DNA of 46,089 nucleotides from NCBI GenBank assembly GCA_015232455.1, contig JADFZQ010000024.1, positions 1-46,089 of the forward strand, read 5' to 3'. Below the pieces are notes generated by a model. It was not told where the DNA came from and ran no database searches. It saw nothing but the letters and a program-made list of their open reading frames with translations. Position 1 is the first letter of the stretch. Each line of letters opens with the position of its first letter. Position numbers and translations under genes: made by a program. This document shows, piece by piece, positions 3,712 to 46,089 of the stretch. The stretch comes from Desulfamplus sp. GTDB taxonomy: Bacteria; Desulfobacterota; Desulfobacteria; Desulfobacterales; Desulfobacteraceae.

Positions 3712-4119
3712 ATACATTGGAGAAATGATATTAAAACTCTTGAACAGTGGGATAAAGAGGGGCTTATTGAATGGTCATCTACTGGTAATCCAAGAAAAAT
3801 AATTTTTGCAGATGAAAGAGAAGGTAAAAGAGTTCAAGATATTTGGGAATATAAAGACCCGCAATATCCTGTTTATCCTACAGAAAAAAATGCTGACTTA
3901 TTGGATTTAATTGTTCGCACATCATCTAATTCTAAAAGCATAGTTTTAGATTGTTTTTGCGGTTCTGGAACAACTCTTAAATCAGCACAAATTAATGGAC
4001 GAAATTGGATAGGTATTGATCAATCAGAACATGCCATAAAAGCGACCATTGAAAAACTTGAAGGAGTGCAAAATGACCTTTTTGTTGATAAGCCTGAATA
4101 TGAGTTTATAGAGATATAA
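3712..4119 (+). pseudogene. C-terminal fragment of a DNA N4/N6-methyltransferase
   Basis: An open frame with no valid start follows a TGA at 3709. It begins IHWRNDIKTLEQWDKEG and includes STGNPRK, DIWEYKDP, YPTEKNADLLDLIV and then the AdoMet-binding motif I LDCFCGSGTTLKSA. Motif I placed near the C-terminus after the YPTEK box is the beta-class amino-methyltransferase order, so the catalytic DPPY motif and everything N-terminal is missing. About 135 residues survive. This marks a decayed restriction-modification system lodged between dppD and dppF. Confidence 0.8.
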
Positions 4120-4120
4120 A

Positions 4121-4152
4121 AATTATTTAATGGAGTTTTTCAAAATGACCAA
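4121..4152 (+). repeat. Left direct repeat: copy of the dppF start region
   Basis: 32 bp identical at 31 positions to 5043-5074 (AATTATTTAATGGAGTTTT then T/G then CAAAATGACCAA). The right copy contains the ribosome-binding site and first codons of dppF. This left copy leads only to a short dead frame (MTNVFIKI, stop). The two copies bracket the VapBC-type cassette. Confidence 0.85.
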
Positions 4153-4228: not shown

Positions 4229-4555
4229 ATGCCAACTGGAATGATAGATAATGTTAGAGGAAAAATTCTACCTCCTGAATGGCTTGAACAGATTGGAGAA
4301 ACTCCTGATAAAATATTTCAGGTAATTATTAAAGTAAAACCTAATGTAGAGCAAAACAATACTTGCATAAATACTCAAAGAGACAGAACAAAAAACATTA
4401 TTCTTCCTCATATTTCAAAGGAGATAAGAAATAAGGTGCTGCAATCTCTTATGGAAGAGTCAGATAGTAACAGCGATGATCTAAGTATAGATGAGATTAA
4501 AAAATCAAGAAGCACAAAAGACCCCAATTTTTATAATTTCTTTGATTCGGAATGA
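4229..4555 (+). CDS. Probable antitoxin of the VapC partner
   Basis: 108 residues; RBS AAAAAGGAAAAAA before the ATG. It ends 9 bp before the PIN-domain gene. The first part (PTGMIDNVRGKILPPEWLEQ) looks like a short strand-rich region, and the charged C-terminal half (about residues 70-108, Ser/Asp/Lys-rich) is typical of the flexible toxin-neutralising tail of VapB-like antitoxins. I cannot assign a named DNA-binding fold, so the role is inferred from position and size. Confidence 0.55.
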   Translation: MPTGMIDNVRGKILPPEWLEQIGETPDKIFQVIIKVKPNVEQNNTCINTQRDRTKNIILPHISKEIRNKVLQSLMEESDSNSDDLSIDEIKKSRSTKDPNFYNFFDSE

Positions 4556-4564
4556 GTAATTTTT

Positions 4565-5011
4565 ATGAAAAACTGTTTACTTGATACCAATATTTGTGTG
4601 AACTATTTGAACGCGTTAAGAAAGAATATAGATAAAAGGTCAACTGAAGAGCAACGTATTTTAGAAAAAATTGAACAGATAAAAGATATAGTAAATTTAT
4701 ATCTAAGCCAAGCTGGTGTTGCAGAATTGCGGTTTGGAGCAGAAAAATCTCAAAATAGGATAGCAAATCTTAAAAGAGTCGATACACTAAAAAAGGCTTT
4801 TCCTGAGTTAAAAATAGATAACGAAGTTTGGAATGATTATGTAAGAATAAAGGTAGAATTAAGTAAAATAGGCAGGCTGATTCATGATATGGATTTACTA
4901 ATCGCAGCAACAGCAAAAAGATATGACCTTTTGCTTATTTCAAATGATAAAGACATGGACAATATAGATTTTCTGGTTGAAAACAAAATTGAAAGAGAAA
5001 ACTGGTTATAA
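4565..5011 (+). CDS. vapC: PIN-domain ribonuclease toxin (VapC-like)
   Basis: 148 residues forming a complete PIN domain. The metal-binding acidic residues are visible: D7 in LLDTNIC, a glutamate in VAELRFGAEKS, an Asp in HDMDLLIAATA, and the final acidic cluster ISNDKDMDNI. VapC toxins are Mg2+-dependent RNases, commonly cutting tRNA or rRNA, and are neutralised by the gene upstream. The pair is flanked by a 32-bp direct repeat of the dppF start, suggesting recent insertion. Confidence 0.85.
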   Translation: MKNCLLDTNICVNYLNALRKNIDKRSTEEQRILEKIEQIKDIVNLYLSQAGVAELRFGAEKSQNRIANLKRVDTLKKAFPELKIDNEVWNDYVRIKVELSKIGRLIHDMDLLIAATAKRYDLLLISNDKDMDNIDFLVENKIERENWL

Positions 5012-5042: not shown

Positions 5043-5074
5043 AATTATTTAATGGAGTTTTGCAAAATGACCAA
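5043..5074 (+). repeat. Right direct repeat containing the dppF RBS and start
   Basis: Partner of 4121-4152 (31/32 identical). It contains TGGAG followed nine bases later by the dppF ATG at 5067, so dppF retains its own translation signals after insertion of the TA cassette. Confidence 0.85.
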
Positions 5075-16512: not shown

Positions 16513-16587
16513 GATAAATTCACCAAAGTTATAATCTAATTGTGGTTGAGAATACACTCAAGGCGGTAATTCTGATAAGATGAAGTA

Positions 16588-16615
16588 GTAGGGTTTAAGC
16601 ATGCTTAAACCCTAC
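16588..16615. repeat. GTAG-bounded perfect palindrome in the hisJ-hisQ gap
   Basis: 28-bp perfect inverted repeat, arm GTAGGGTTTAAGCA, sharing its outer GTAGGGTTTAA with 180-213. It lies between the binding-protein and permease genes, where classical enterobacterial REP sequences also occur. It may protect the upstream hisJ mRNA and set the binding-protein to permease ratio. Confidence 0.8.
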
Positions 16616-32335: not shown

Positions 32336-32340
32336 GATAG

Positions 32341-32404
32341 CCCCCTCCCCGTCCTTCCCCAAGGGAATGAGTAATTATTCCCTTGGGGAAGGACGGGGAG
32401 GGGG
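32341..32404. terminator. 28-bp perfect C/G-rich hairpin between convergent genes
   Basis: Arms CCCCCTCCCCGTCCTTCCCC plus AAGGGAAT and the exact complement enclose an 8-nt loop. It lies six bases after the HD-GYP stop and before the convergent UPF0597 gene end, so it could end transcription from both sides, though no clear U-tract follows. A damaged relative occurs at 45911-45955, pointing to a dispersed repeat. Confidence 0.65.
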
Positions 32405-32449
32405 CAGAGGTGGGGCAACAGGAACTGCCAATTTACTTATCTGGAATAA

Positions 32450-33860: not shown

Positions 33861-33897
33861 ATAGATTTGACAATTTTTTAAAAGTTGTCAAATCTAT
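33861..33897. repeat. Hairpin downstream of the ancestral fadH-like end
   Basis: 13-bp perfect arms ATAGATTTGACAA/TTGTCAAATCTAT, 11-nt A/T loop. It starts about 17 bp beyond the fossil stop codon at 33914-33916 on the minus strand, so it was probably that gene's 3' hairpin. A similar 37-bp sequence lies at 36782-36818. Confidence 0.6.
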
Positions 33898-33913: not shown

Positions 33914-33961
33914 TTATATCCTTGCAATTTCCTCAGCTTCGCTTATGCAATACATAAGATG
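33914..33961 (-). pseudogene. Fossil 3' end of the fadH-like gene
   Basis: The minus strand reads HLMYCISEAEEIARI then TAA, identical to the last codons of the gene at 34589 except that the live gene ends ARG-stop. This is the original terminus displaced by insertion of the TA cassette. Confidence 0.8.
33920..33961 (-). repeat. 42-bp direct repeat, distal copy
   Basis: Identical over all 42 bases to 34595-34636 and in the same orientation. Together they bracket the MazF-type TA cassette at the 3' end of the fadH-like gene. Confidence 0.9.
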
Positions 33962-33969
33962 TTTTATTA

Positions 33970-34326
33970 TCATTCCAATTCTCTTGGCTCAATCAGCAGT
34001 TGAATACCCGCCAGTATCTGGTTAATTCGTCGCTTTGATACTTTTCCAATGTATTCACCCAATTGAGATTTATCCACTGTAAATATTTGAGAAACCACTA
34101 CAACACTTTTTTTGGGCAAGTTAGCTTCGCCAGCTTCGAGCATTACATTACCAGGTGCATCTGCTCTCTTAATGTTTGATGTCAATGCACATACTACAAC
34201 GGTGTTAATGCGGCTTCGGTTGAAAATATTATTCTGAATAACTATATGCGGATGATTGTATCCGGGACTCGAACCAATAGGCTCATCTAATTCCACCCAG
34301 TATATTTCACCTTGATTGATTACCAA
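33970..34326 (-). CDS. mazF: MazF/PemK-family endoribonuclease toxin
   Basis: 118 residues. It starts GEIYWVELDEPIGSSPGYNHPHIVIQNN, with the R/N loop normally reading KxRPxxVl here changed to YNHPHIV; then VVVCALTSN, GNVMLEAGEANLPKKSVVVVSQIFTVDK, LGEYIGKVSKRRI. Expected to cleave mRNA at short motifs. Overlaps the antitoxin by 7 bp. The pair is flanked by the 42-bp direct repeat of the fadH-like gene end. Confidence 0.88.
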   Translation of the reverse strand: MVINQGEIYWVELDEPIGSSPGYNHPHIVIQNNIFNRSRINTVVVCALTSNIKRADAPGNVMLEAGEANLPKKSVVVVSQIFTVDKSQLGEYIGKVSKRRINQILAGIQLLIEPRELE

Positions 34327-34583
34327 TCACCCTCCACTAATTTTTTTTGGTTCTTAATCATTTTTGACAGACGAATTGTCTCGTTTTCATCATGCTGATC
34401 GTCGTCATCATAAGCCTTATTGATTTGATCCAGCAGGTTTTGGTTTTGATAATTATGGATAAATTTTTCGAGAGCTATTCCGACAAGATGGCTCTTAGAA
34501 ATATTGAGCCGTTGTGCCAATATTTCAGCTTGCTCAAAAAGAGGCTTCTGAATTGATATTGCTGTTCTAATTGTATTTGACAT
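34320..34583 (-). CDS. MazE/RHH-type antitoxin of the MazF partner
   Basis: 87 residues. N-terminal half TIRTAISIQKPLFEQAEILAQRLNISKSHLVGIALEKFI fits a ribbon-helix-helix DNA-binding domain; the acidic Asn/Asp-rich C-terminal tail (YDDDDQHDENE) would wrap the toxin. It begins only 5 bp after the stop of the fadH-like gene, so it may be read through from that promoter. Confidence 0.82.
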   Translation of the reverse strand: MSNTIRTAISIQKPLFEQAEILAQRLNISKSHLVGIALEKFIHNYQNQNLLDQINKAYDDDDQHDENETIRLSKMIKNQKKLVEGDW

Positions 34584-34588
34584 ACTGA

Positions 34589-36745
34589 TTACCCCCTTGC
34601 AATTTCCTCAGCTTCGCTTATGCAATACATAAGATGACGTGGTGATTTTGCATCTCCGATAAAATGAAATTCTGCCTTGGTTAGAGTTTCAAATTTTTTC
34701 ATATCCCTGATTGATATATGCTTCTCTGAAATCACAACCATATCACATCCACCTATAGAAACAGTTTCTGTATCTTTAATGGAATCTCCTTTTTTTATAT
34801 GAAACTCCACGCCACAAGGTGTAAATTTTTCAATAGAAACATTCTTGTAGAGTATGACACCTTTCTTTTTAAGGCTTTCTCTCAGATAATATCGATCGTT
34901 TGCTGACATCTCTTCTGCATAACTCTTTTTTCGGTTTAGCACATAAACCTCATTGCCCTTTGAAGCAATGTAGTCAGCAGTAATCAGACCTGTCATACCA
35001 CCACCCAACACTATAACTTTTTTTCCTGAAATTTCAGCATCAAAGTCATTATTCTCAAAATCTTTTATATCCCTATTTTTTATATCTTGCTCTCCGTTTT
35101 TATCTAAAATATCCACGCTGGTTACAACGTCCATTTTACTTTGAAAAAGCCCTTTAATCATAGGCATGTCTGGCATTGAGCCTGTTGCAACAACAACCTT
35201 ATCAGGGTTGAACGAGTTTATAATCTCATCATCAAGAGATTTGCCATAAAGTATCTCAACATTTAGCCTTACAAGTTCATTTTTGAAAAACTCAAGAATA
35301 TCGCTAAGCTCACCGCGTCCCGGAGCTTTTGAGGCAAGAGATAACAACCCTCCTGAATTGGTCTTTTTTTCAACAATCAAAACTTTATGACCTCTGATTG
35401 CAAAAAGACGGGCAGCAGCCATTCCAGCGGGTCCTGCTCCAACAACCAAAATCTTGAGTAGTTGGGCAGATACTTGGTCAGGCTTGTTCTGTTTCTCCCC
35501 TAAGTTAAATGTGAAGTTACTAACTCTACTCTCTTTCTGATACTCCTCTTTTAATTTATACTCTCTTCCAACATCAGGATTTGCAACGCATGAACCCGGC
35601 TCTTTAGCAAGAACAGCATGGATACAGCCCAAACAACACCCAATACATGGGCGTATTTCAGATAATTTTCCCTGTTGAGCTTTAATTGGCAAATATGGAT
35701 CAGCAAGCAGTGCTCTACCCATTGAGACAACATCAGCTTTTCCATCTCTTAAGATTTCATCTGCAAGTATGGGCGATTTTATCCTTCCAACTGTAATAAC
35801 AGGAATTGAGACATGCTTTTTTACCTCCTCAGCCATATAGACAAAACAGCCATGAGCTGAATACATTGATGGGATAGTAAGTTCAGTTGAGCCATAAACA
35901 CCGCCTGAAATGTGAAGATAGGCAACTCCAGCTTTTTCTAAAAGCGGGGCAAGTCTAACTGCATCTTCAAGCTCCCAGCCGTTTTTAATGTAATCTCTAC
36001 CATTCATACGAATACCAATAGGGAAATCTTCGCCTGCTTTTTTCTTTATATCTTCAATAATTTCAAATAAAAATCGAGTTCTATTCTCAAATGATCCGCC
36101 ATACTGATCTTGCCTTATATTTGAGTTAGGCGACATAAATTGATTTATCAGATAGCCGTGTGCAGCATGAATCTCTACAAAATCAAATCCCGCATCTTTG
36201 CAACGCCTTGTAGAACTTCCAAAACACTGTGCAAGCTCTCTTATCTCATCAATCTCTAATGCTCTAACTTCACCTTTGACAACTGCTGGGGCTGGAATTG
36301 CTGATGGTGCAACTTTTTCAGGCAGATAAGATTGACGACCACCGTGCATTAATTGAACACCAAACTTAACTTTATAATCTTCTGATTTTTTAAATATTGA
36401 GTTGTCAGACGATTTAGATTCAAAGGCAGACTGTAAATTAGATTGAAATTGATCAGATTCTTTCACAGCTTTAACCATCTTCTGCAAAGATGGAATACAA
36501 CTATCTTCATACAGAACAGGCAGATCAGGAAGCTCCTGCCCTCCTGGGTGAACACTGCCTCCACCGACAAGCATCATGCCAACGCCCCCTTTTGCCCTTT
36601 CAACAAAATATTGGGTCAACTGATCTGTAACATGGCATTTGTCATCTACTCCAAAATTTATGCTCATAGCAGACATCATAAGCCTGTTTTTAACATACAT
36701 AGAACCGATTTTAATTGGTGTGAAAATGTTAGGAAAAGTTGTCAT
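34589..36745 (-). CDS. NADH:flavin oxidoreductase, 2,4-dienoyl-CoA reductase (FadH/BaiC) type
   Basis: 718 residues, longer than the usual ~640-670. Old-Yellow-Enzyme TIM barrel about 1-370 (FMN; HAAHGYLINQFMSPNSN active-site loop), 4Fe-4S Cys motif CIGCCLGCIHA...CVANP about 370-395, then FAD/NAD(P)-binding domains VVGAGPAGMAAA and VIVLGGGMTGLITA. It reduces enoyl or dienoyl thioesters or related unsaturated compounds. Extra low-complexity stretches sit at about 97-127, 400-425 and 560-585. The 3' end was rebuilt by a TA insertion. Confidence 0.88.
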   Translation of the reverse strand: MTTFPNIFTPIKIGSMYVKNRLMMSAMSINFGVDDKCHVTDQLTQYFVERAKGGVGMMLVGGGSVHPGGQELPDLPVLYEDSCIPSLQKMVKAVKESDQFQSNLQSAFESKSSDNSIFKKSEDYKVKFGVQLMHGGRQSYLPEKVAPSAIPAPAVVKGEVRALEIDEIRELAQCFGSSTRRCKDAGFDFVEIHAAHGYLINQFMSPNSNIRQDQYGGSFENRTRFLFEIIEDIKKKAGEDFPIGIRMNGRDYIKNGWELEDAVRLAPLLEKAGVAYLHISGGVYGSTELTIPSMYSAHGCFVYMAEEVKKHVSIPVITVGRIKSPILADEILRDGKADVVSMGRALLADPYLPIKAQQGKLSEIRPCIGCCLGCIHAVLAKEPGSCVANPDVGREYKLKEEYQKESRVSNFTFNLGEKQNKPDQVSAQLLKILVVGAGPAGMAAARLFAIRGHKVLIVEKKTNSGGLLSLASKAPGRGELSDILEFFKNELVRLNVEILYGKSLDDEIINSFNPDKVVVATGSMPDMPMIKGLFQSKMDVVTSVDILDKNGEQDIKNRDIKDFENNDFDAEISGKKVIVLGGGMTGLITADYIASKGNEVYVLNRKKSYAEEMSANDRYYLRESLKKKGVILYKNVSIEKFTPCGVEFHIKKGDSIKDTETVSIGGCDMVVISEKHISIRDMKKFETLTKAEFHFIGDAKSPRHLMYCISEAEEIARG
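34595..34636 (-). repeat. 42-bp direct repeat, proximal copy (3' end of fadH-like gene)
   Basis: Encodes HLMYCISEAEEIAR of the live gene. Exact match to 33920-33961. Sequence beyond the repeat differs completely (ACCCCCTTGC versus TATATCCTTGC), which defines the insertion junction. Confidence 0.9.
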
Positions 36746-36781: not shown

Positions 36782-36818
36782 ATAGATTTGATAACTTTTT
36801 AAGAGCTGCCAAATCTTT
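36782..36818. repeat. Relative of the 33861 hairpin upstream of the fadH-like gene
   Basis: ATAGATTTGATAACTTTTTA... matches the 37-bp hairpin at 33861-33897 at about four of five positions, but with a weaker stem. It lies between the DUF554 and fadH-like genes. Confidence 0.45.

Positions 36819-42822: not shown

Positions 42823-46089
<3,267 letters not shown>

Follow-up and report, generated by a model that had tools for sequence, protein, structure and literature searches.

The spread of chromosomal toxin-antitoxin (TA) pairs without an attached mobile element is an old question. We asked how one such pair came to lie at the end of an oxidoreductase gene in a stretch of 46,089 nucleotides from Desulfamplus sp. 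(contig JADFZQ010000024.1 of assembly GCA_015232455.1, positions 1 to 46,089 of the forward strand), which we call the window and whose genome, G000 in our numbering, is a draft of 4.35 Mb in 82 contigs. The pair, a MazF/PemK-type toxin and its presumed antitoxin, stands between two identical 42-bp copies of the codons with which the gene ends, and the copy nearer to the gene is still part of the intact reading frame. Such a doubled gene end may show how addictive genes move without a transposon.

A MazF-type cassette between two copies of a gene end

The host gene (34589..36745, minus strand) encodes an FMN/NAD(P) oxidoreductase of the FadH/old-yellow-enzyme type with 718 amino acids (aa; PF00724, 9.2e-76, and PF07992); against the NCBIfam mycofactocin FadH/OYE family it scores 8e-126, under the cut-off of that model. 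The live gene ends in ...HLMYCISEAEEIARG-TAA, with the stop at 34591-34589 and the protein end ...EEIARG. The near copy of the direct repeat (34595..34636, minus strand) consists of the live codons that precede the final GGG-TAA and is conserved in orthologues, while the far copy (33920..33961, minus strand), recognised by sequence identity, is a gene-end fragment. The copies agree at 42 of 42 positions, their starts are 675 bp apart and 633 bp lie between them. An earlier note, made from the letters of this DNA alone, had reported the exact repeat at these coordinates, which are correct, and had proposed that a TA pair was inserted into the last codons of the gene.

Could the repeat be a product of chance or of faulty assembly? 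From a simple composition estimate, chance alone would yield ∼1e-15 exact 42-mer pairs in 46 kb, and the pattern has turned up in several genomes that were assembled separately. Thus, even though a draft in 82 contigs leaves some room for an artefact, we find this explanation hardly credible. In the whole window only two direct repeats outside arrays reach a score of at least 26 at a spacing of 300-2500, namely this one and a repeat around a VapBC-type pair. A general segmental duplication, which the earlier note had named as a finding that would speak against its proposal, was looked for and none was seen within the window.

The insertion itself was borne out by related genomes in which the site is empty. 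In G005 (locus L009) there is a single copy of the 42-mer and no toxin pair; the host gene is joined through this copy to a downstream serine-dehydratase-like gene, and parts 1-616 and 1240-1500 of the query meet there. G006 (L010) likewise has a single copy and no toxin pair, followed by different intergenic sequence. The stretches fetched for the orthologues in G001, G003, G004, G007, G008 and G009 hold one copy each (G001 and G009 are placed in the same genus as the window). When the flanks in the window are joined as if the two copies had recombined, the result is an intact gene end with its flank, which matches the empty site in G005 at 91% identity over 473 bp. Because G005 and G006 each have a single copy without the toxin pair, we regard it, on this comparison of sequences, as near certain that the MazF-type cassette at the 3′ end of the host gene is a real insertion.

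Which of the two gene ends is the original one? Translated from the minus strand, the far copy gives ...EEIAR-I-TAA (stop at 33916-33914) and is followed by a palindrome (33861..33897, minus strand), just as the earlier note had described. The note had taken ARI-TAA, followed by this hairpin, for the original end and had expected orthologues to show a single 42-mer with the same continuation. The single 42-mer is there, but the gene ends of G005 and G006 both read IARG-TAA, the palindrome directly follows the single gene end in G005 but is missing in G006, and ARI-TAA occurs in the far copy only; on the evidence of these relatives we reject it as the ancestral stop. Past the 42-mer, GGGTAATCAG (34585..34594, minus strand; the last codon, the stop and 4 bases of the live gene) follows both in the near copy and at the G005 empty site, whereas the far copy has ATATAACAG. 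Given IARG-TAA in both relatives and the GGGTAATCAG common to the near copy and G005, it is the tail of the far copy, ATATAA (33914..33919, minus strand) with its ‘fossil’ stop, that is the odd one, and it is present in neither empty-site relative.

The palindrome belongs to a family that is dispersed in the genus. Copies of its type, AGATTTGACAAC...GTTGTCAAATCT, flank the host gene on both sides (33861-33897 and 36782-36816), and many more are scattered through Desulfamplus genomes and through G034, a genome from another family.

The toxin-antitoxin pair and its place in the host operon

We then asked what the insert contains. Only two open reading frames (ORFs) of at least 60 aa lie between the 42-bp copies, and there is no integrase gene among them. 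The toxin ORF (118 aa; 33970..34326, minus strand) was assigned to the MazF/PemK toxins by sequence family (PF02452, 3.8e-28). It overlaps by 7 nt a small ORF of 87 aa (34320..34583, minus strand), which matches no Pfam and no NCBIfam model and whose role as the presumed antitoxin is suggested by its position. The longest exact match between the ends of the insert that could serve as a terminal inverted repeat is 6 bp, and in the 11 inserts examined none longer than 8 bp was present within 80 bases of the ends. Common terminal inverted repeats, the mark of a transposon, an insertion sequence or a miniature inverted-repeat transposable element, were found in none of the 11.

The ATG of the antitoxin ORF (34583) is 5 bases beyond the host stop, and AAGGGGG at 34598-34592, inside the host gene end, is by eye a plausible Shine-Dalgarno sequence, 8 nt before this ATG. 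Upstream of the antitoxin ORF on the minus strand we found no match to a consensus promoter, which is weak evidence. The toxin is 81% identical in aa sequence to a homologue from Desulfamplus sp. that is located at another site, in G009, where it has its own leader. These features suggest that the pair in the window probably rides on the host operon; it would be transcribed and translated from that operon and would use a Shine-Dalgarno sequence located within the end of the host gene. The nearest MazF relative found, that of G009 (L004, contig C134), lies at a contig end, and the contig stops a few bases past the toxin stop codon, as if the assembly had broken at a repeat.

Direct repeats around toxin loci in the genus

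Is this arrangement peculiar to one locus? We surveyed 90 toxin loci spread over the genomes of the genus (30 of 45 MazF, 30 of 36 ParE and 30 of 113 PIN matches) for a direct repeat with one copy on either side of the toxin, a score of at least 26 and a spacing of at most 2 kb. Such a repeat flanked 20 of the 90 TA loci, compared with 0 of 240 control windows (Fisher 1e-12), taken from 4 of the 10 genomes in overlapping 1.5-kb steps, and with 0 of 30 acetyltransferase loci, which come from all 10. At a laxer score of 18 the counts were 23 of 90 and 1 of 240. A gapped search, for which 2 of the 90 loci had too little flank, gave 24 of 88 TA loci, 5 of 240 windows and 0 of 30 acetyltransferase loci, or 20 of 88 against 0 of 270 controls at E<=1e-8; it additionally flagged L062, L093 and L099. 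Among DUF29 loci, used as a further control, 1 of 17 was repeat-flanked (L325, a DUF29 copy adjoining an MNT/HEPN pair). Some of the loci are not independent, as L062 and L085 lie on one contig, and L090 and L102 have one repeat in common.

The repeats are not all of one kind. Twenty-two loci could be considered for classification, namely the members of the set of 90 whose ungapped repeat scored ∼18 or more, minus L101 (a weak 26/30). The repeats of 10 are dispersed, palindromic or multi-copy (L017, L025, L057, L063, L065, L091, L097, L098, L105 and L106), those of 9 are derived from the end or start of a host gene, and 3 stayed unclassified (L036, L090 and L102). The idea that every repeat-flanked TA locus is a target duplication is ruled out by the first group, and two loci from a genome scan outside the 90, L168 and L146, are likewise of the dispersed or tandem kind. 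The sorting was done by reading and was not blind, and the controls had no match at that strength to sort. Gene-derived repeats of 29-138 bp thus mark 9 of 90 toxin loci. The two in the window were known beforehand; without them the count is 7 of 88 against 0 of 270 controls (Fisher 4.5e-5). This gene-boundary scar, present at 9 of 90 toxin loci and, at equal strength, absent from all control windows, provides a handle on how TA pairs spread.

Within 966,089 bases of G000, five two-copy repeats of that strength occur outside three CRISPR-like arrays. Four of the five enclose TA genes (the MazF-type and VapBC-type pairs of the window, an MNT/HEPN pair and a PIN toxin), and the fifth lies inside a giant ORF. 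Among the four, only the two pairs of the window are of the gene-boundary type. The MNT/HEPN case, L146, was rejected as a target duplication, its repeat adjoining a larger duplication of a DUF29 gene region. The three long CRISPR-type arrays (L153, L158 and L163, on contigs C11 and C22) have repeats of ∼28-37 bp at a spacing of ∼60-80 bp.

Beyond these loci, we looked at 80 named MazF relatives (the best 80 of 206). Ungapped flanking repeats were present at 6 of 80, compared with 1 of 84 pseudo-controls with a smaller window, and the gapped search, for which 2 of the 80 had too little flank, found them at 9 of 78 (8 of 78 at E<=1e-8). The genes around eight of those nine were inspected (L272 was left out), and a clear gene-start duplication was seen only at L209, in a Chloroflexota genome. 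There the MazF relative abuts the start of a putative homocysteine S-methyltransferase gene, and a decayed copy of 93 bp with 77% identity lies on the opposite side.

Nine duplications at gene boundaries

What do the nine gene-derived cases have in common? In eight of them the TA operon is co-directional with the host gene. Five involve a gene 3′ end: the MazF-type insertion of the window (L027, 42/42), a ParE-type pair at an NRPS-like (nonribosomal peptide synthetase-like) gene (L058, 113/118), a pair at an Rpn-like gene (L076, 38/40), a pair at the 3′ end of a convergent gene (L103, 127/138), and L085 (38/38), the weakest case, in which the toxin is truncated and the repeat lies mostly beyond the stop. 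The other repeats come from the leader and start of the gene downstream of the VapBC-type pair in the window (L100, 31/32), from the start of a histidine kinase gene (L030, 33/34), from the start of a partly masked gene (L018, 29/29), and from the junction between an upstream gene and an RND (resistance-nodulation-division) permease gene (L104, 44/47).

The earlier note had pointed out that two unrelated TA modules in this DNA have the same architecture, and this is so. The VapBC-type pair of the window (4229..5011, plus strand) comprises a 108-aa ORF, with no match in Pfam or NCBIfam, and a PIN toxin of 148 aa (PF01850, 7.9e-16; 3.5e-19 against the VapC model NF047863, below its cut-off). The left copy of its repeat (4121..4152, plus strand) corresponds to the leader and start of the downstream gene, and the right copy (5043..5074, plus strand; 31/32 identical) leads into that gene, which is intact and by eye looks like one for an ABC-transporter ATPase. 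The segment 2286-5050, with the VapBC-type pair and a truncated N6/N4 DNA methylase (3901-4119; PF01555, last part only), is absent from G005 and G006. The methylase and VapBC stretch looks like a decayed restriction-modification (R-M) system adjoining a TA pair.

L058 is a second insertion with empty sites, as a single copy is present in G009 and G005. The tail of its far copy, which adjoins a VapC-like ORF, is of the G009 type and that of its near copy is of the G005 type; therefore the two copies there also carry two different tails. The NRPS-like 3′ end may be a hot spot (L058 1188-2191; L181; L182): in G000 it is occupied by a ParE-type pair together with a short VapC-like ORF, G009 has a VapBC-type pair there, and G005 a different ORF. 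L030 was considered as a further empty-site case and rejected, since the left copy and a portion of the TA genes are present at the related site in G000 as well (contig C2, 101219-103520). G005 and G000 have the left repeat copy and the antitoxin part in common; at the G000 site ∼1.3 kb of other sequence precedes the kinase gene, and homology begins exactly at the repeat boundary.

Might the pair in the window be what remains of a larger integrative element whose attachment site was the gene 3′ end and which lost its integrase and other genes, so that attL and attR now surround the TA genes? Integrative elements often target gene 3′ ends, and the 42-bp identity resembles an att core. The nine gene-derived cases, however, have differing targets, at gene starts as well as at gene ends, and most of their inserts hold little besides the TA pair (L018 and L076 hold further ORFs), a pattern that a single site-specific integrase would not produce. 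Moreover, no element was seen at the site in G005 or G006. We therefore consider such a remnant unlikely.

Loci between integron-like repeats

A related question is whether the TA pair is a gene cassette of an integron and its repeats are recombination sites. The repeats of integron cassettes are attC sites. Integron integrases do occur in the genus (7 of 10 genomes have a match above the cut-off, G000 only a partial one below it), and some TA loci sit between dispersed palindromic repeats, such as L098, ∼4 kb from an integrase on contig C77 of G005. The repeat in the window, in contrast, is host coding sequence present in orthologues, among the loci collected in the analysis it is confined to this gene and the orthologues, and it folds weakly (-0.10 kcal/mol per nt, compared with -0.27 for L091 and -0.26 for L098). 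For the MazF-type pair of the window, an integron cassette is thus very improbable.

The situation is different at other TA loci, where the flanking repeats are structured and dispersed and are found again and again in arrays (L168, L065, L106 and others); as far as their sequences indicate, these are most likely integron cassettes. Arrays of dispersed repeats of ∼90 bp with TA genes were seen at 37.7-41.4 kb of contig C120 in G005, at 25-29 kb of contig C48 in G004 and at 177-200 kb of contig C33 in G000. The spacing is mostly 0.7-1.2 kb in the first two, and the arrays are probably made of integron cassettes.

The window holds further repeats away from the two insertions. A perfect 29-bp inverted repeat with its arms 8 bases apart (GCCCCCTCCCCGTCC...) lies at 32340-32405 and has a related copy at 45911-45951, and near-identical palindromes GTAGTAGGGTTTAANCATGNTTAAACCCTAC are found at 180-210 and 16585-16615.

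How the gene end was doubled

How was the joint made? The reading we favour, and hold to be probable, is that a minimal operon of the MazEF/PemIK type came in by horizontal transfer and was attached at the last codons of the host gene, so that the gene end was doubled and the gene stayed intact, as one instance of a recurrent class of insertions in which addiction modules enter at gene boundaries with a long target duplication. That the window case belongs with the addiction-module insertions with long target duplication is likely. Homologous recombination with the gene end would have made the joint on the gene side, and illegitimate joining that on the other. Almost as likely, the gene end was copied in place by fill-in of a staggered break or by a template switch. 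Taken as a full account of the locus, such a long target duplication with no imported host sequence strikes us as a serious possibility, albeit a somewhat doubtful one.

The ancestry of the host gene bears on this choice. Over its last ∼600 bp, G000 and G006 share 61 sites, compared with 22 for G000 and G005 and 19 for G005 and G006; shared derived sites number 11 for G000 and G006 and 3 for each other pair, and a tree (FastTree) unites G000 with G006 (support 0.98). Over the 1500 bp upstream, G000 and G005 share 98 sites, G000 and G006 39, and G005 and G006 66; the tree groups G000 with G005 (support 0.90), and the derived sites, in the stretch with outgroups, number 9, 4 and 9 for G000 with G005, G000 with G006 and G005 with G006. 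In the flank past the far copy the same three pairs share 113, 37 and 38 sites. The counts per sub-window were summed by hand. A tract of different ancestry beside the insertion is expected if gene end and TA pair entered together, whereas for a duplication made in place the shift at this point would be a coincidence. The opposite conclusion from sliding identity, that the host gene contains no recombinant tract, was dropped after the site-pattern counts and trees.

The junction points the other way. The last A of GAGGAA is present in both 42-bp copies and in none of eight aligned orthologues; as this G000-private base is in both, the copies look derived from one another, which favours duplication in place. 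In addition, the junction allows, by eye, a reading in which 3 bp (CAG) were duplicated on the two sides of an insert made of the TA genes, a copy of the 42-mer and ATATAA, and this needs no extra mutations. The earlier note had supposed that a second gene end came in with the cassette: the ancestry shift fits such an import, and the private base fits the in-place origin.

Several observations have to be set against the reading that we favour. An imported gene end does not predict a base private to both copies, unless there was conversion or coincidence. The far tail differs from the near tail by 3 substitutions and 1 gap in 10 bp, beside 42 perfect bp, a combination that a simple 52-bp duplication does not predict. 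The ancestry signal is uneven: agreement of G005 with G006 is the commonest pattern in some upstream sub-windows (e.g. 20 versus 12 at 1201-1350), 3 of 11 downstream sub-windows do not favour G005, and the first 150 bp downstream (29 versus 2) are inflated because the intergenic sequence of G006 differs. A replacement in G005, not in G000, could explain part of this signal. At the level of the class, 10 of the 22 classified loci have dispersed, palindromic or integron-like repeats, which is a different process, and 3 of the 22 are unclear. Finally, toxicity, addiction and excision are predicted from sequence, and G000 is a draft of 82 contigs. Taken together, the sequences make us lean slightly towards import of the gene end, with duplication in place close behind.

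Why the cassette may persist

If the gene end was doubled in either way, why is the cassette still there? An insert flanked by direct repeats would be inherently reversible whatever its cargo, as recombination between the repeats could remove it precisely, and most repeat-flanked cargo would then vanish. Addictive cargo would persist, because losing the antitoxin (or the methylase) would kill the cell. Such a survivorship rule would require no special recombinase. Retention through addiction is in our view plausible, as a prediction from the analysis. It predicts in turn that inactivation of the toxin should allow precise loss of the cassette via the repeats, with the host gene left whole.

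A broader generalisation, which we offer tentatively and rate as possible, short of probable, is that TA pairs make up a class of mobile, recombinase-free cassettes, which insert at the borders of genes, duplicate these borders and use host translation signals, and that genomes keep those whose cargo is addictive.

Comparison with known systems

Finally, we asked how the insertion compares with known systems. With type II TA systems of the MazEF/PemIK kind, the pair in the window shares a PemK/MazF toxin ORF that overlaps a small upstream ORF; it differs in that the antitoxin candidate matches no Pfam or NCBIfam model and no leader of its own was seen. TA cassettes of chromosomal integrons likewise lie between repeats, and they are discussed as adding to the stability of the array (PMC11023631); the repeat in the window, in contrast, is host coding sequence. 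The mobility of TA systems is discussed without long target duplications in those parts of four sources that were available (PMC3874152, PMC3031569, PMC4615327 and PMC11023631). We found no literature report of a long target duplication around TA modules, in a search outside of which the main R-M papers lay and which could have missed TA cases.

The closest parallel comes from R-M systems. Their insertion with long target duplication was reportedly described in work by Nobusato in 2000 and Furuta in 2010. It is also covered in a review (PMC3874152). The likenesses are that an addiction module is inserted relative to a sibling genome, here with empty sites in G005 and G006, that the target duplication is long and variable, and that the movement is unlinked to a known mobile element. 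The differences are that the cargo here is a type II TA pair and that the duplicate is a gene boundary, of 42 bp in the window and of 29-138 bp over the nine Desulfamplus cases. For R-M systems inserted as operons, the authors suggest that the insertion may impose maintenance of the operon via post-segregational killing (PMC4615327); the present locus differs in combining such an insertion with a gene-end duplication and a TA pair. The window case agrees with the long-target-duplication architecture of R-M systems, except that its cargo is a TA pair. If the link is true, one rule accounts for the long target duplications of both R-M and TA systems, and two kinds of addiction module are united under one entry route or one survival rule.

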